A DNA stretch of 37,778 nucleotides. Source: Lachnospiraceae bacterium (GTDB lineage: Bacteria > Bacillota > Clostridia > Lachnospirales > Lachnospiraceae). Each line of letters opens with the position of its first letter. Position 1 is the stretch's first letter. The stretch lies in the NCBI GenBank assembly GCA_017513005.1, contig JAFWDM010000112.1:1-37778 (forward strand), read 5' to 3'. Shown here in pieces: positions 111 through 36,710 of the stretch. Position numbers and translations under genes: made by a program. The notes under the pieces are model-generated. The model had not been told where the DNA came from, did no database searches, and was given only the letters and a program-made list of their open reading frames with translations.

Positions 111-156
111 AAAATTTTCCTTCTTCTATAAGCGGTGGGATATTGCTTTCGTCCGG

Positions 157-183
157 CGCGCAGGACCCGCAAGTGCGTCTTGC
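157..183 (-). repeat. Interspersed hairpin repeat, divergent copy next to the S66 gene stop
   Basis: Read on the minus strand, this begins GCAAGACGCACTTGC and ends GGGTCCTGCGCG. It aligns without gaps over 27 nt with the repeats at 6150, 34146 and 36671, with roughly three quarters of positions identical. It starts one base after the peptidase stop codon. The half-sequence CGCGCAGGACCCGC recurs near 9006-9020 and 21174-21186. Confidence 0.5.
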
Positions 184-1227
184 TTATTTATCATAGTGAA
201 AGACTATTTTCTGCCGTACTGCATCAACTGTCGCATTCACTCCAAAAGGGATGATGCAGCGAGGGATTCCATGTCCTATATTAATGTTGCAGACGATCGG
301 GAGCTTCGGGTCATAAACGATCTTCTGCAGCAATTTTTTATAATCCTGCTCGTATATTTCATCCATAGGCTTTCCGACCAGGATTCCGCTGATCACGGAA
401 AAAATACCTGTCTCTTTTAATATTCCCAGGCACCTCTCATATTTCTCCGGATGCATCTGCTCTTCACTGGTTTCCAGAAGCAGGATTTTTCCTTTCCATT
501 CTTCCAGAGAAGGGAAAAGTCCGTATTTTTTTGCCAGTACAGGCATATCCTTATACCTGCTGCCATCAAACAAATCATAGAGGGAGTCCAGGCATCCCCT
601 GAGAATCTCTCCGGAAAAAACGGGCGGACCCTGCAACAATTCAAAACCTCTGTCCGGCCGGGATATCAATTTAGTTCCGATCCGCTCCTCTCCGAAATCC
701 GGTCTTGAAAGATACCAGATCGCGCTCGGCTCAATTTCACGGATCCTGCCTGTTGCAATAAGTTCCTCAAAATACTGTTTTGTGTAGGCCAGCATTTCTT
801 CTTCCAGCTCACAAGTATCTGTCAAAAAGGACTGCCCGTAAAAAGTGGGGATTCCGATCTTATGGAACATCAGATGATTGATCGTAGTATCTGAAAAGCC
901 CAGAAAGATCTTCCGGGAACCGCGGGCGGCTTCCTCTAATTCTCCGTTATCAAACAGATATGGAAGCAGTCTGTAGGTGTCATCTCCTCCGATCGCACAG
1001 AAGATCAGATCGATCTCCGGATCACGGAGTGCCTGCAGCAGATCTTCTGCACGGGCTTCAGGATGGTCTTTCAGATAGTCGATTCCCTTCATCGCGTTAG
1101 GCAGAAACTTAACATTCATTCCAAATTCCTGCAGCCGCCGCAATCCGATCTGCACCTCGTGGCACACAAACTTTTCTCCCATCAGGCCACTGGACAGGCT
1201 GACCAGGCCGACTGTTTTAACTTTCAT
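184..1227 (-). CDS. S66-family peptidase (LD-carboxypeptidase / MccF-like)
   Basis: This 347-residue protein is predicted to be a serine peptidase of family S66, which includes LD-carboxypeptidases that trim peptidoglycan tetrapeptides and MccF, which inactivates microcin C. The sequence shows the N-terminal pattern MKVKTVGLVSLSSG, the segment FCAIGGDDTYRLLPYL, the nucleophile motif GFSDTT (Ser112) and a late NINIGHGIPR with the expected histidine. The frame stays open upstream to an ATG at 1377 that lies inside parS. I prefer the start at 1227 because homology begins there and the length then fits the family, although the GGAA upstream is a weak ribosome binding site. It ends beside the parS terminator. 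Whether it acts on cell wall or on a peptide antibiotic cannot be told from sequence. Confidence 0.85.
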   Translation of the reverse strand: MKVKTVGLVSLSSGLMGEKFVCHEVQIGLRRLQEFGMNVKFLPNAMKGIDYLKDHPEARAEDLLQALRDPEIDLIFCAIGGDDTYRLLPYLFDNGELEEAARGSRKIFLGFSDTTINHLMFHKIGIPTFYGQSFLTDTCELEEEMLAYTKQYFEELIATGRIREIEPSAIWYLSRPDFGEERIGTKLISRPDRGFELLQGPPVFSGEILRGCLDSLYDLFDGSRYKDMPVLAKKYGLFPSLEEWKGKILLLETSEEQMHPEKYERCLGILKETGIFSVISGILVGKPMDEIYEQDYKKLLQKIVYDPKLPIVCNINIGHGIPRCIIPFGVNATVDAVRQKIVFHYDK

Positions 1228-6104: not shown

Positions 6105-6149
6105 GGCAGACCTCTGTTTTCCTGGAACTGAATTGATGTTTACAAGATT

Positions 6150-6190
6150 TCAAGACTCGCCCGCGAGTTTTGCGCGATGAAGAATAAAAA
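6150..6190 (+). repeat. Interspersed hairpin repeat, copy A (upstream of mnmE)
   Basis: The core CAAGACTCGC pairs with GCGAGTTTTG to give a 9-bp stem with one G-U pair. It is followed by the conserved tail TGCGCGATGAAGAATAAA. Near-identical copies occur at 34146-34185 (upstream of the response regulator) and 36671-36710 (upstream of mutS2), always with the downstream gene on the minus strand and the repeat in the same orientation. Base changes in the arms tend to preserve pairing. I do not recognise a known family. Confidence 0.7.
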
Positions 6191-8967: not shown

Positions 8968-9003
8968 CTTTACCTCTCTCTATTTTGTGCAGAATGACTG
9001 ACA

Positions 9004-9020
9004 AGCGGGTCCTGCGCGCC
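9004..9020 (+). repeat. Partial copy of the interspersed repeat (rnpA-yidD gap)
   Basis: AGCGGGTCCTGCGCGCC matches the 3' half of the copy beside the S66 peptidase gene almost exactly (GCGGGTCCTGCGCG). The 5' half is not recognisable, so this is either a degenerate half-copy or a shorter related motif. Confidence 0.35.
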
Positions 9021-9053
9021 GTGGAGCAGACCAATGCGCGTTTTATTCACAGG

Positions 9054-9971: not shown

Positions 9972-10316
9972 TTATCCACATATTTTCCACGTCAAAATGT
10001 GGATAAAGTTGAAAACCTGTTCAGGACCGCACATCTATTCGACACAAAATATGGGAAAATAAATTTTTTTCAGACAAGATGTAGAAGAGAAAAAGTTATC
10101 CACATTTCCACAAAATCAGTATTTCACCAATTTGGCCTATCCACAAATTGTGCATAACTTGTGGATAACTGCACATTTATTCTCTGCATTCCCTTCAGAA
10201 CCGCGATTTTATACCTGTTTACATTGGGGATAACTCTTATTTTTATGCTTGTGAATGAATTTGATTTCAGGCGGTCCTACGGTTATCAACAAAGATATCC
10301 ACAAATTGTGGATATC
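9972..10316. other. oriC: oriC, DnaA-box cluster upstream of dnaA
   Basis: Full matches to TTATNCACA occur at 9972-9980 (+), 9998-10006 (-), 10096-10104 (+), 10149-10157 (-) and 10160-10168 (-). One-mismatch boxes occur at 10137-10145 (+), 10225-10233 (-), 10283-10291 (+), 10295-10303 (+) and 10307-10315 (-). The region is AT-rich, lacks genes, and marks the switch from leftward to rightward transcription. Together with boxes between dnaA and dnaN it resembles the bipartite Bacillus subtilis origin. Confidence 0.92.
10294..10316. promoter_or_regulatory. Palindromic double DnaA box at the dnaA promoter
   Basis: GATATCCACA and TGTGGATATC face each other across three bases. Each arm is a DnaA box with one mismatch. 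The site ends nine bases before the -35 element of dnaA, which suggests autorepression by DnaA. Confidence 0.6.
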
Positions 10317-21163: not shown

Positions 21164-21213
21164 AAAATCCGACGCGCAGGACCCGCGTGAGGCCCTGTGC
21201 GTCGGATTTTTTT
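21164..21213. terminator. Second terminator, overlapping an interspersed-repeat relative
   Basis: A 17-bp stem pairs 21164-21180 with 21194-21210 (one G-U pair), followed on the plus strand by seven T residues. On the minus strand it can end the carboxypeptidase transcript, with four T residues. One arm contains GCGCAGGACCCGCG, the same half-motif as near 157 and 9006, so the terminator may have been built from that repeat. Confidence 0.88.
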
Positions 21214-21253: not shown

Positions 21254-23623
21254 TTATCCCGGTCTGTGCTGCCTTTGGGATCCGTTCCCGGAAGTCCTTC
21301 GGCCGGAGGATCTGCCGTCGGAGGATCTGCTGTCGGAGGATCTGCCGTTGGAAGATCTGCTGTCGGAGGATCTTCCATTGGAAGTTCTTTGATTGAAGGA
21401 TCTGCCACCGGAAGGTCCGAGGTCTGTATACCTTTCTTCAAGAGATCGTTCCTGCAAAGACTGCTGCTGTGCGCGTGCTGCGCGGCGTCTTTTTCTGCTG
21501 CGGCGTCTTTTCAGTTCCGCAAAATAGCTGCGGATCCAGAAAATAACACAGAGGAGGAAGGCGGCAGCCAGCAGAAGCGGGACAAATAGAAGGATGTTCA
21601 GGTAGATGGAGCCGTGCGCGCCTGTATGTACGAGTGCAAAAAACAGGGATCGTATCCCATGGACCTCTTCAGGGACAGCAGGGCTTCCCGCCGCGCGGCT
21701 GCTGCCTTTCGGGAGGTTGACATCTGCTGTTTCGGAGGCGGCAGCGGTGCTGGCTGCATTGGAGGAAGTACCGGTATCTGCCGCTTCTGAAGAAGCTGTG
21801 CCGGTTTCTGCTTCAACCGTATTTACAGAGGGATCGAACAGTACATCGACAGTCCCCAGGTCGTACTCATGATATTTATATTGGATCCTGCCGAGGATCC
21901 GGGTACCGTCCTTTGCAGTATGCGAAGGGTCTTCCGGATTTTCCCCTGCTGTGTCAGCTGCCGCGCCGGGATCGTCCTGCGATGTATCATCTGTGGCTCC
22001 TGCAGAAGCAGTCTCTGCTGTCCCCTCATAGGTGAAAGGGATGATGGATGCTGTCAGATCCCGGAAGGAGGCATTTTTGGGAAGCATCAGGACGGCACTG
22101 CTGTCAATAGTAAAAGGGGGCCTGCTGTTTCCGAAAATATCTGTGCCGAATGAGAGAAAAGCACTGTCCTGCATTGTAAAGCGGTTTTCTTCGCGGGCGA
22201 CTCTGAACTCGTCAAAATTGTCATAGGCGTAGTCGAGCAGGTCGATCGTTTCATAATACTGGTAGGGAGGCTCTTCGCGCATGATCACGCAGATGAGCCG
22301 CTTTCCGTCACGTTCCGCGAAGGTGACCAATGTTTCCCTGGCTTCGTCGGTATATCCTGTCTTGCCGCCTGCCACATCGTCGCAGGTAATCACCCCGTTC
22401 AGAAAGGAATTGGTATTCCCGATCCAGAAATCATCCGGCTGGCCGTCACTTGCTTCAAAATGATAGTTAGTCTGTGACATGTACTCGATCAGATCGGGAT
22501 GGCGGTAGGCCTCGCGCGCGATCAGTGCCATATCGTAGGCACAGGTGTAATGGTCTTTGTCATGCAGCCCGTTTGTCGTGACGAAATGTGTATTCCGGCA
22601 TCCGAGTTCCTCCGCCCGCAGATTCATCAGGTTGACGAAGGCAGTTTCGCTCCCGGAAACGCGCTCCCCCAGAGCGACTGCCACTTCATTTGCGGAAGCG
22701 ACCATGAGCCCGTAGAGGGCCTCCTCCACCGTGATGGATTCATCGACATCCATCCCGATGTTGGAGCTTCCACGCTCGATCCCGAAAACAGCGTTTTCCG
22801 AAAACGTGATCTTGTCGGTCGGGCGCAGGTTCTCATAGGCAAGGAGGGCGGTCATGACCTTCGTGATGCTCGCCGGATACAGGTGCATATACATGTTTTT
22901 TGCATAGAGCACTTCCCCGCTGTCCGCGTCCATGACGACAGCACCCGCAGCGCCGATGGAAGGTCCCTGCGGCCATGCGGGATCTATATTGGTCTGGGGC
23001 GGCTGCGCCTTGTTGGCGGCGCGCTCTGCAGGCAGGTCCTCCACGCCTTCTTTTGTATAAATATACTTGAATTCCAGAGGAGAATCGTAGGGAGAAGAAG
23101 CAGCCGGGGTTCCCTCCTCATCGCTGTTTTCTTCGGTGCTTTTTTCTCCTGTACTGCCTTCCGTGGTACTCTCTGTATTTGTCTGCTGTGTCCCGGAACT
23201 GCTTGTCCCGGCATTCTCCGTTTTTGTCTGCTGTGTCCCGGAACTGCTTGTCCCGGCATTCTCTGTTTTTGTCTGCTGCGTCCCGGTGCCGTTTGTTCCG
23301 GCATTCTCCGTTTTTGTCTGCTGCGTCCCGGTGCCGTTTGTTCCGGCATTCTCCGTTTTTGTCTGCTGTGTCCCGGAACTGTTTGTCCCGGCGTTTTCCG
23401 GTGTTGCCTCGTCTGATCCGGTCTTTACTGCCTGTTCTTCGTTCCCGGTCTTTTTATCTTCCCCGGTGGTGTTTTCCGTACTTTTATTTGCTGCTTCCGC
23501 TTCTTTGAAAGGGGCGGCATCAGCTGCCATGGCAGGCTGCGGAATCGAAAGGGAGGAAGAAGCAGCAAGGACGGCAGCCAGAAGCAGGGCGGCGGTACGA
23601 TATTTATATCTCATTAAACTCAT
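21254..23623 (-). CDS. D-alanyl-D-alanine carboxypeptidase (S11) with repeat stalk and basic membrane tail
   Basis: This is a penicillin-binding protein of the DacA/DacF type that trims the terminal D-Ala of peptidoglycan stem peptides outside the cell. It has 789 residues, about twice the family norm. A signal peptide (residues 1-33) is followed by a Thr/Gly/Asn/Ser-rich stalk with five 15-residue repeats starting ENAGT (76-150). The catalytic domain has SITK (Ser252, Lys255), SAN (310-312) and KTG (421-423). A second low-complexity region, a membrane helix near 690-710 and an Arg/Ser-rich tail follow. So an extracellular enzyme is anchored at its C-terminus with a long basic cytoplasmic tail containing RSS-type repeats, which is unusual. 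AGGAAG precedes the ATG. A second in-frame Met is at residue 4. Confidence 0.9.
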   Translation of the reverse strand: MSLMRYKYRTAALLLAAVLAASSSLSIPQPAMAADAAPFKEAEAANKSTENTTGEDKKTGNEEQAVKTGSDEATPENAGTNSSGTQQTKTENAGTNGTGTQQTKTENAGTNGTGTQQTKTENAGTSSSGTQQTKTENAGTSSSGTQQTNTESTTEGSTGEKSTEENSDEEGTPAASSPYDSPLEFKYIYTKEGVEDLPAERAANKAQPPQTNIDPAWPQGPSIGAAGAVVMDADSGEVLYAKNMYMHLYPASITKVMTALLAYENLRPTDKITFSENAVFGIERGSSNIGMDVDESITVEEALYGLMVASANEVAVALGERVSGSETAFVNLMNLRAEELGCRNTHFVTTNGLHDKDHYTCAYDMALIAREAYRHPDLIEYMSQTNYHFEASDGQPDDFWIGNTNSFLNGVITCDDVAGGKTGYTDEARETLVTFAERDGKRLICVIMREEPPYQYYETIDLLDYAYDNFDEFRVAREENRFTMQDSAFLSFGTDIFGNSRPPFTIDSSAVLMLPKNASFRDLTASIIPFTYEGTAETASAGATDDTSQDDPGAAADTAGENPEDPSHTAKDGTRILGRIQYKYHEYDLGTVDVLFDPSVNTVEAETGTASSEAADTGTSSNAASTAAASETADVNLPKGSSRAAGSPAVPEEVHGIRSLFFALVHTGAHGSIYLNILLFVPLLLAAAFLLCVIFWIRSYFAELKRRRSRKRRRAARAQQQSLQERSLEERYTDLGPSGGRSFNQRTSNGRSSDSRSSNGRSSDSRSSDGRSSGRRTSGNGSQRQHRPG
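21290..21400 (-). repeat. 15-bp tandem repeats encoding the Arg/Ser tail
   Basis: Units resembling TCGGAGGATCTGCTG (plus strand) repeat about six times and encode repeats of the type DSRSSNGRSS at the C-terminus of the carboxypeptidase. The units remain multiples of three, so copy-number change would keep the frame. Confidence 0.7.
23174..23398 (-). repeat. Five 45-bp tandem repeats in the carboxypeptidase stalk
   Basis: Five units of 45 bp encode residues 76-150, each starting ENAGT and ending QQTKT or QQTNT. Units 2 and 3 encode identical peptides, as do units 4 and 5 apart from one residue, which points to recent duplication. Strains should differ in copy number. Confidence 0.9.
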
Positions 23624-34129: not shown

Positions 34130-34145
34130 GGTGTCATTGAAATAT

Positions 34146-34185
34146 GCAAGACCTGCTCGCAAGTCTTGCGCGATGAAGAATAAAG
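34146..34185 (+). repeat. Interspersed hairpin repeat, copy B (mutS2 / response regulator gap)
   Basis: GCAAGAC and GTCTTGC form a 7-bp stem around ten bases and are followed by GCGATGAAGAATAAAG. The tail is identical to copy A for 15 bases. The element begins three bases after the mutS2 stop codon (minus-strand direction) and lies about 100 bases upstream of the response regulator start. Confidence 0.75.
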
Positions 34186-34188
34186 TGG

Positions 34189-36654
34189 TTACTCCCGCAG
34201 TGTGACGATGGTCACGCCGGCATCCCCCTCCCCGAAGTCGCCGAGTCGGTAGGATCTGATCCATTTCTGTTTGCGGAGGTACTGCTGGACGGCATTGCGG
34301 AGGGCGCCGGTGCCTTTTCCGTGGACGATGCGGACGCTCTGGAGATGGGACATCCGGGCTTCGTCCAGATATTTGTCGAGTCTGTAGACGGCGTCGTCCG
34401 TGGTCAGCCCCAGCAGATTCAGCTCCGGAGATACGGAGGATCCCCGGGAGAGATCCATTTTGCTGCCCGTTGAGGAGGCCCGGTCGGCATCCTGAAAAGC
34501 GCGCTTTATGGCGCTGCCGCCCTGTTTTCCGGATCCGACAGGCCTGCCGCCCGCGTCCAGGAGATTTCCGCTGACATCCTCGGCGAGGAGGATGAGATCG
34601 GAGAGTTCCACCTTACTCTGCAGGATCCCGCAGCGGACGCTGACCTTGCCGCTGCGGTCCGGAAGTGCGCTGACAGTACCGGTCAGGCCCATGGAGATGA
34701 CCTTCACGCGGTCTCCGACATGAAGATCCTGCGCGCGGACCTTTCTGCCGGCGGGCGCCGCCTCCGGTTTGCGCTTCACTTTGGCGTTTTTCTCATTGAC
34801 TTTATTGCGAAGCGCGGTGCGGGTCCGTTCCATGGAGGACAGATCGCCGGTCTTCGAGGCAGCCTTTCGCAGGTCGGAAATAGCCTGGTCGGCCTCCTCT
34901 TTGGCCTTTTCCAGGATCGTGCGCGCATCTTCGTTGGCTTTCTGCAGGAGCTCTTCGCGGCGCTTCTCAAACTGCTGCTCGCGGTCCCGAAGGGCCTTCT
35001 GCTCTTTTTCGAGCTGCGCGCGCAGGCGGTCGGATGCTTCTTTCTGTGCCCGCAGCTGCTGGCGGGATCTCTCCAGATCGGCGAGCAGGTCCTCGAAATT
35101 CTGCGCGTCCTGGCTGAGCTGCTCTTTTGCGGTCTCGATGATGTAGTTCGGCAGGCCGAGCTTCTGCGAGATGGCGAAGGCGTTGCTCTTGCCGGGGATG
35201 CCGACCATGAGCCTGTAGGTGGGCTGCAGGGTCTCCACATTGAACTCGCAGCTGGCGTTTACGATGCCCTCTGTGCGCATGGCGTAGGCCTTGAGCTCCG
35301 CGTAGTGGGTGGTCGCCAGCGTCCGGATCCTGCGCACGTGGCAGAAATTCAGGATCGCGATCGCCAGGGCCGCGCCCTCCGTGGGATCCGTGCCGGCTCC
35401 CAGTTCGTCAAAGAGGCACAGGCACTGCCTGTCGACGCGCCGGAAGATGTCCACGATCGTCTTCATGTGCGAGGAGAAGGTGGACAGGCTCTGCTCGATG
35501 CTCTGCTCGTCGCCGATATCGGCAAAGACATCCCGGAACAGGGAGAGCTCGCTCCTGTCGCCCGCCGGAATGTGGAGGCCCGCCATGCCCATCAGCTCGA
35601 AGAGGCCGACGGTCTTGAGCGTGACAGTCTTGCCGCCTGTGTTGGGACCGGTGATAATGACCATATCATAGCTGTCCCCGAGTTCGATATCGATGGGGAC
35701 GACCTTCTTTTTGTCGATCAGAGGGTGGCGGCCATGCCGGATATTGATATAGTACCTGTCATTGAAGACGGGGCGGGTGGCATTCTGCTCCATCGCAAGG
35801 TCCGCGCGGGCAAAGATAAAGTCCAGCTGCGTCATGTTCTTCGCATCGTCCTTGAGCTCCATGAGGTGTTCGCCCGCCTCGGCGGAGAGAGATGCGAGAA
35901 TCTTTTCGATCTCCTTCTTCTCCTGCAGGGCCAGTTCCCGCAGGGTATTGTTCAGCGTGACGATCGCGGCCGGCTCGATAAAGAGGGTGGAGCCTGTGGA
36001 GGACTGGTCGTGGATGAGGCCCGGGACCTGCGATTTGTATTCCGCTTTGACGGGGATGCAGTAACGGTCTCCGCGCATCGTGATCACATTGTCCTGCAGA
36101 AAAGAGGAGTAGGTCGTATTGACCATCTTTGCCAGCTGCTGGTGCACCCTGTCCCCTGTCAGCTGCATATCCCGCCGGATCCTGCGCAGTGCCGGCGAGG
36201 CATCATCCGCGACCTGGTCCTCTGAGAGAATACAGCGCCGGATCTGCGCCGAGAGCGAGGGCACCGGATAGAGGCAGTCAAAAAGATCAAAGAGCACGTC
36301 GGTGCCGGCGTCTGTGCGGTCCTCTTCTCCGCTCAGGCCATAGCTGCGGATCCTTCCCACGTTGTCCAGAAAGGAAGCCAGCTGCAGAAGCTCCGGCATG
36401 GACAGGGGGGATCCCACCGAGAGCGCCCCGAACATATAGCTGAAGTCGCGGTTGTTCCCGAAGGAGATCGATCCCTTCCGGAACAGATGAGCGAGCGCCG
36501 ATTCCGTCTGGGCCTGCGCATGCTCGATGTCAAAAAGATTGTCCATGGGCAGCAGGTCCCGGCACAGCTTTTTTCCCGGCTGTGAATCCGCGTGCTCCTC
36601 CAGACGGGCGATGATCTTGTCATATTCTACGATGTGAAGTACTTTTTCATTCAT
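34189..36654 (-). CDS. mutS2: MutS2 family ATPase / endonuclease
   Basis: MutS2 suppresses homologous recombination and, in Bacillus, acts on collided ribosomes. The 821 residues contain a MutS-type core, Walker A GPNTGGKT at 336-343, DELGAGTDPTEGAALA, a long coiled coil rich in Gln, Glu, Lys and Arg (about 515-610), and a C-terminal Smr domain with VRIVHGKGTGALR. The Smr motif usually written LDLRG is LNLLG here. I start at MNEKVLHIVEYDKII because AGGA is suitably placed and homologues start there; an earlier in-frame ATG at 36687 lies inside hairpin repeat copy C. The gene runs against replication. Confidence 0.95.
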   Translation of the reverse strand: MNEKVLHIVEYDKIIARLEEHADSQPGKKLCRDLLPMDNLFDIEHAQAQTESALAHLFRKGSISFGNNRDFSYMFGALSVGSPLSMPELLQLASFLDNVGRIRSYGLSGEEDRTDAGTDVLFDLFDCLYPVPSLSAQIRRCILSEDQVADDASPALRRIRRDMQLTGDRVHQQLAKMVNTTYSSFLQDNVITMRGDRYCIPVKAEYKSQVPGLIHDQSSTGSTLFIEPAAIVTLNNTLRELALQEKKEIEKILASLSAEAGEHLMELKDDAKNMTQLDFIFARADLAMEQNATRPVFNDRYYINIRHGRHPLIDKKKVVPIDIELGDSYDMVIITGPNTGGKTVTLKTVGLFELMGMAGLHIPAGDRSELSLFRDVFADIGDEQSIEQSLSTFSSHMKTIVDIFRRVDRQCLCLFDELGAGTDPTEGAALAIAILNFCHVRRIRTLATTHYAELKAYAMRTEGIVNASCEFNVETLQPTYRLMVGIPGKSNAFAISQKLGLPNYIIETAKEQLSQDAQNFEDLLADLERSRQQLRAQKEASDRLRAQLEKEQKALRDREQQFEKRREELLQKANEDARTILEKAKEEADQAISDLRKAASKTGDLSSMERTRTALRNKVNEKNAKVKRKPEAAPAGRKVRAQDLHVGDRVKVISMGLTGTVSALPDRSGKVSVRCGILQSKVELSDLILLAEDVSGNLLDAGGRPVGSGKQGGSAIKRAFQDADRASSTGSKMDLSRGSSVSPELNLLGLTTDDAVYRLDKYLDEARMSHLQSVRIVHGKGTGALRNAVQQYLRKQKWIRSYRLGDFGEGDAGVTIVTLRE

Positions 36655-36670
36655 ATGGATATCCTGTAAT

Positions 36671-36710
36671 CCAAGACTCACTCGCAAGTCTTGCGCGATG
36701 AAGATTAAAA
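36671..36710 (+). repeat. Interspersed hairpin repeat, copy C (upstream of mutS2)
   Basis: CAAGACT and AGTCTTG form a 7-bp stem around eight bases, followed by CGCGATGAAGATTAAAAA. Compared with copies A and B the core is changed at several positions but keeps paired arms and tail. It lies 17 bases upstream of the mutS2 start codon and thus inside the leader. Confidence 0.75.

Follow-up and report, generated by a model that had tools for sequence, protein, structure and literature searches.

What are the short hairpins that precede three minus-strand genes in this DNA, and do they control those genes? The first-pass annotation of the window (the whole 37,778-nt stretch that was analyzed) had reported three copies, located before mnmE, a response regulator gene and mutS2 in the same orientation, and had left a choice between a mobile palindromic element and a regulatory RNA or operator shared by the leaders. 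The minus strand does carry a copy at each of those places. A 31-nt core pattern (at most three mismatches) matches three times in the window compared to 0.00 expected from 100 shuffles, and a pattern for the right end of a longer form matches three times compared to 0.03 expected. The window contains three copies of the smallest class of the element described below and two or three decayed right-end fragments, for which scores are given with R1, a covariance model of the core of the longer form.

154..184, plus strand: probable decayed right-end fragment from a long-form copy (CGGCGCGCAGGACCCGC...GTCTTG); low R1 score of 12.9 bits, E 0.17
6149..6183, minus strand: copy A, element of 35 nt (TCTTCATCGCG-hairpin-TTGAA) with the mnmE ATG (6104) 44 nt downstream; mnmE by Pfam
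6151..6172, minus strand: hairpin of copy A, 10-bp stem with one A.C mismatch
6184..6188, minus strand: putative target (left cleavage site) of copy A, TTTAT
8991..9021, minus strand: probable decayed right-end fragment, 3' arm of the hairpin mostly gone; no R1 match
21170..21204, plus strand: possible right-end fragment, uncertain, now within a terminator-like hairpin followed by a T-run; R1 10.2 bits, E 0.72
34145..34179, minus strand: copy B, 35-nt element, between the mutS2 stop and the response regulator gene; genes by Pfam
34147..34168, minus strand: hairpin of copy B, 10 pairs
34180..34184, minus strand: putative target of copy B, TTTAT
36670..36704, minus strand: copy C, element of 35 nt with the mutS2 ATG (36654) 15 nt downstream
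36672..36693, minus strand: hairpin of copy C, 10 pairs with G.T
36705..36709, minus strand: putative target of copy C, TTTAA

Although each copy does lie before a gene, copy B is not simply part of a leader. Its TTTAT begins 4 nt past the stop of mutS2 (34189–36654), and 103 nt separate the end of the copy from the response regulator ATG (34041). The 9-bp stem described earlier for copy A corresponds to nine pairs and the A.C mismatch over 10 bp, whereas the 7-bp stems given for copies B and C extend to 10 pairs each, some of them G.T. When each 35-nt copy is folded by itself as single-stranded DNA, its stability is unremarkable relative to shuffled sequences (z = −0.47, −1.84 and −1.03). A terminator role for copies A to C was considered and rejected, as no T-run follows the hairpin.

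The sequence is dispersed through the genome to which the window belongs (2,676,249 bases in 130 contigs). The core pattern with up to three mismatches occurs at 21 places, including the three in the window, whereas a reversed control pattern gives 0. With at most one mismatch, the left end TTTATTCTTCATCGCGCA occurs 51 times, and the stretches of this genome that were examined hold 62 distinct left-end loci.

These loci bear directly on the possibility that the hairpin is a regulatory RNA or operator motif of gene leaders. Such a role would fit the placement of all three window copies before a gene in the same orientation, as well as a same-orientation copy in the mnmE leader of one congener (G028, L112). 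However, the other eight of nine congener mnmE loci (L108–L116, 360 nt upstream) have no copy, and neither do 12 of 13 mutS2 loci (L090–L102, up to 200 nt upstream, with L100 and L101 covering 70 and 127 nt only); the remaining mutS2 locus (L094) carries a long copy in inverted orientation. In the own genome, 49 of the 62 loci lie between two called genes that are co-directional (27), convergent (13) or divergent (9), compared to 70, 24 and 22 for all gaps of 40–600 nt in the same stretches. Neighboring genes are of leader type in 45 cases and of trailer type in 53, and they share the strand of the element in 48 cases and oppose it in 50. By these crude open reading frame (ORF) calls, which use ATG starts only, 8 of the 62 loci fall inside called ORFs; an earlier and looser count, with double counting, gave 21 of 79. 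There is consequently neither an enrichment in 5' leaders nor a preferred orientation, and chance could readily account for the placement of copies A to C before genes. Leader regulation is therefore very improbable, and the element most likely does not regulate adjacent genes and presumably serves no host function. One copy (G000:C117:12704, L270) lies well within a called 871-amino-acid ORF and is possibly an in-frame insertion.

The evidence is instead in agreement with the other suggestion of the first-pass annotation, a mobile element, since the sequence is dispersed and patchy in the genus, with sharp ends, a target-like motif, tandem copies and longer parents. Boundaries are sharp in 100 left and 87 right ends, which read TTTATT/CTTCATCGCGCA and GAGTCTTGAA, respectively (the slash marks the limit of similarity). 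Column frequencies place the limits at TTTATT/CTTCATC and TTGAA/, and the base after the right end is T in 54%. TTTATT precedes 44 of 53 copies in one count and 55 of 65 in another, and the window copies are preceded on their own strand by TTTAT (A and B) or TTTAA (C). No target duplication is detected at the tested offsets among 65 copies, where the best excess of identity over shuffled partners is 0.075.

Tandem copies help to define what belongs to the element. Six pattern matches include four clear junctions (L005, L007, L020 and L080), with the two others (L266 and L267) resembling chance matches. In the four, TTGAAT or TTGCAT runs straight into the second copy, and none of the pattern matches retains TTTATT. 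A fifth junction (L074) has one extra base. The replacement of TTTAT by TTGAA is expected if TTTAT is the target and TTGAA is the right cleavage site, and the junctions suggest that TTTAT lies outside the element. The simplest reading of these sequences is that cleavage occurs after TTTAT and after TTGAA. Alignment yielded no exact empty site: the mutS2 and mnmE neighborhoods of relatives, which are too distant for this purpose (about 77%–82% identity in mutS2), give presence or absence only, with spacers that cannot be aligned by eye. The sequence before TCAGTCGGAG is TTTAAC in 25 of the 49 pattern matches from other genera, a set that includes internal-strand and chance matches. A candidate guide, AATA, located 5' of the left hairpin and able to pair with TATT, was dropped as support because it has no working counterpart in the TTTAAC family.

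Copies with both ends (TTTATT to TTGAA) fall into size classes. Among 65 such copies, 25 are exactly 40 nt, 10 are 72–79 nt, six are 99–105 nt, 17 are 197–264 nt and seven have other lengths, although some of the longest (L025 and L033) end at chance right-end matches and one locus (L218) is counted twice. The proportions are biased, since 14 of the 25 copies of 40 nt come from loci retrieved with a short-form pattern (L001–L021). The window copies belong to the 40-nt class, which corresponds to a 35-nt element if TTTAT is the target. At the other extreme is a full-length form of about 205–240 nt comprising a left hairpin domain, the core and a right-end hairpin (examples are L070, L084, L061, L200, L202–L204, L215 and L217). 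Its left end is TCTTCATCGCGC, with the hairpin CCCGTGACTTCAGTCGTGGG followed by an internal hairpin, and its right-end hairpin is CAAGACTCGCGAGCGAGTCTTG, terminating in TTGAA. From left to right, a tip is followed by hairpin 1 and by a strand that recurs as hairpin 2; next comes AAACGCTCCGCGAGGATGCGCACGGATGCGG...CCCGCATCCGGCGCG, in this or a variant form, and finally the right hairpin. Classes of 72 nt and longer have a sub-terminal hairpin at each end, whereas the 35-nt class has one hairpin only. The short forms keep both ends and may have lost the interior by deletion between short direct repeats, such as CGCGCAA for a step from the 74-nt to the 40-nt class. Some copies have a right end without a left end. 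Between about 240 and 35 nt, the copies form a modular series. The element accounts for a class of intergenic hairpins that might be mistaken for regulatory leaders.

Other families in the same genus (L207, L212, L226 and L062) have the core and right hairpin in common but differ in their left parts, and TTTAACTCAGTCGGAG is a frequent left end outside the genus. At one locus (L292 in G426), two tandem left ends of the TTTAAC family stand upstream of a single core.

A miniature element with terminal inverted repeats, moved by a DDE transposase and ending in TTTATTCTTCATCGCG and its complement, could be proposed because long copies carry CGCGATGAAGAATAAA about 100 nt inward from the end. However, matches between copies run beyond that arm to the TTGAA end, the short forms lack a second arm and there is no duplication. 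The shared sequence beyond the arm largely refutes this proposal, which we regard as barely tenable.

The distribution of the element is patchy. The left end TTTATTCTTCATCGCGCA is present in 14 of 99 genomes: besides the own genome, these are 12 of 60 congeners, each with 1 to 74 matches, and one of 38 genomes from other families of the order, whose only hit carries a mismatch. With a full-length copy (L070) as query, 16 of 62 genomes of the genus match, own genome included (E 1e-6), although in two of them (G037 and G053) the match is limited to the right part or core. At E 0.001 with strict filters, R1 detects the core in 44 of 397 genomes of the family, representing 41 of 334 genera. The element is scattered in some species of its genus, and the folded core is common to elements in many other genera of the family. 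Searches of viral contigs (exact patterns) and of phages and plasmids (blastn) did not detect it, and no account of it was found in the open-licence PMC literature to the extent that its text was accessible. Three contigs of one congener (C30, C92 and C150 of G052) start, at position 2, at the same right-end base and share 53 nt at 100% identity, which suggests that near-identical copies broke the assembly.

The core is the best-conserved part across genera, and its helices change in a compensatory manner. A consensus fold of 20 aligned cores has 29 pairs, 13 of which show at least one two-sided change. The short form offers a weaker case. In the 40-nt class (41 rows, 38 distinct, after three chance-like rows of 44, L049, L193 and L228, were left out), 87.1% of the cells are paired compared to 84.9% in shuffled alignments. 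Two-sided changes occur in 5 of 10 pairs, which 70 of 500 shuffles also reach, whereas the covariation score of 0.185, versus 0.151, is reached by 0 of 500. The earlier observation that arm changes tend to keep pairing therefore applies weakly to the hairpins on which it was made and clearly to the core of the long form. Neither the window copies nor the full-length and core stretches match an Rfam family at the gathering score; the best match below it is Leu_leader in L062 (26.3 bits versus 50, E 0.0021). Absence from known families holds in this respect, but elements with ends of the IS200/IS605 type are already known as a kind. The core is a candidate noncoding RNA or single-strand recognition structure.

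We consider the hairpins to be, probably, the shortest class of a gene-less, non-autonomous mobile element related to the IS200/IS605 family, whose transposases are of the Y1 type. Accounts of these elements describe insertion 3' of a specific tetra- or pentanucleotide without duplication, sub-terminal hairpins and a preference for the lagging strand (PMC5934647; PMC7290912; PMC8612924). The element resembles IS608, ISDra2 and their PATE-like derivatives that consist of ends only (PMC7290912) in its retained left pentanucleotide, sub-terminal hairpins and lack of duplication, and related left and right cleavage sites would be a further likeness. Movement most likely occurs by single-strand transposition. 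A Y1 (HUH) transposase acting in trans would cut at TTTAT/ and TTGAA/ to release a single strand, and the excised circle would then insert 3' of a new TTTAT.

Similarity to elements that do encode such proteins is found at the ends. An IS605 element in another genus (L336 in G434) encodes proteins that match Y1_Tnp (5e-43) and TnpB (PF07282 and PF01385). Its left end lies at TTTAAC with the hairpin AAATCCCCCACC...GTAGGTGGTGGG, which is 84% identical over 38 nt to the left hairpin of the TTTAAC-family element (blastn E 3e-5, 35 loci) and shows a similar flanking complementarity, whereas its right end differs from that of the element. A similar hairpin is present at the right ends of TnpB elements in L249, L250 and L264 (E 1e-3 to 1e-4) and in L251 (E 0.06). 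The IS605 element of the own genome (L022, C121) has a left hairpin, GCGCATTCTCGTGACTTCAGTCGTGAGTTAGC, that resembles hairpin 1 of the element, and it seems to use TTGAA as its target.

If the G-rich strand marks the leading strand of replication, a bias toward G-rich copies is expected for a lagging-strand template. In other genera, 27 copies are on the G-rich strand, eight are on the C-rich strand and one is undecided (36 tested, p = 0.002; 28 to 8 with slightly different flanks), in a set where some genomes contribute more than one locus and the own genome contributes one (L286). No bias is present in the own genome (27 to 23), among the loci from the congener search (26 to 28, a few of them from the own genome) or in the 40-nt class (9 to 11), and the 10 decided full-length copies of the genus are divided 7 to 3 (p = 0.34). 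The missing bias in the own genus either counts against a relationship to IS200/IS605 or reflects age. Two further observations count against it: the single 35-nt hairpins are not unusually stable, and copies that have a right end without a left end also fit reverse transcription.

Unlike the autonomous IS200/IS605 elements, the element contains no tnpA in any copy, and no autonomous partner was found. Neither its right end nor its conserved multi-helix core is present, by end patterns and R1, on any Y1, TnpB or IscB locus examined (Y1_Tnp, 2 of 2 in the own genome and 30 of 45 in 13 congeners; RRXRR/IscB, 2 of 2; TnpB, 17 of 17 and 16 of 16). The reduction of the smallest class to one 35-nt hairpin is another difference. 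On contig C31 of the own genome, a distance of about 1.45 kb and a 348-amino-acid ORF separate the tnpA from a lone left end upstream of it that has no right end (L023); this end is read as unlinked to the gene. Finding the enzyme that moves the element would test how far elements consisting only of ends can spread when no autonomous parent is present.

A different single-copy transposase has also been considered. REP-like sequences processed by a RAYT (TnpA_REP) are, like the element, short intergenic hairpins present in tens of copies, some of them clustered (PMC6006769; PMC3116915). The 35-nt size, the single hairpin and the many intergenic copies would suit such an origin, and Y1 frames of RAYT length (254–317 amino acids, 10 of 45 matches) are present in six congeners (G009, G011, G014, G052, G058 and G060). 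However, six of these 10 loci were examined and have no copy; one (L148) has a left-end match with three mismatches and no element after it, and part of another (L158) reads N. The two Y1_Tnp matches of the own genome (E 6.8e-42 and 9.9e-33) are strong, as for the IS200 type, and neither is RAYT-like. Furthermore, the element has long modular parents and lacks the GT[AG]G foot (GTAG or GTGG) of REPs, and no inverted doublets like those of REPINs were seen (PMC6006769). Processing by a RAYT is thus quite unlikely.

The structured core raises another possibility, that it is an orphan guide RNA, a scaffold like a reRNA or omegaRNA for a TnpB-like nuclease acting in trans; the nuclease would select for both spread and retention of the element. 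The TnpB reRNA is described as located at the right end of IS605 elements, with a TAM at the left (PMC8612924). The core likewise terminates at the right end, the left TTTAT or TTTAA would serve as the TAM, and both the compensatory changes and the conservation of the core relative to the left ends are in keeping with such a role. Unlike these systems, the element has no TnpB gene. R1 finds no core beside TnpA, TnpB or IscB in 71 loci, save a 24.8-bit hit about 1.1 kb away on the other strand (L258), and 9 of 16 genomes with a core, some of them incomplete, gave no TnpB (PF07282) match. No Rfam family matches at its cut-off, and the structure could serve single-stranded DNA instead. A guide function is therefore doubtful, and similarly tentative is the broader proposal of family-wide, gene-less transposons whose putative structured-RNA cargo recruits a TnpB- or IscB-like nuclease in trans. 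If this proposal is true, then a noncoding element both moves and protects its own copies, and the 35-nt hairpins of the window are its stripped remains.

The window has other features of note. Clostridiales-1 RNA (RF01699; 16768–16948, plus strand, 103.5 bits) is the only Rfam family hit and lies away from the copies. Three perfect TGTTTCACGTGAAACA palindromes, which we take to be parS-like, occur at 15–30, 1361–1376 and 2455–2470 (0.00 expected), and TTATNCACA sites occur seven times compared to 0.50 expected, five of them at 9972–10168. Together with mnmE and jag, which are among the window genes identified by Pfam, these sites probably mark a replication origin region. Tandem repeats are present within long ORFs at 23120–23467 (45-nt spacing) and 21278–21412 (15-nt spacing).
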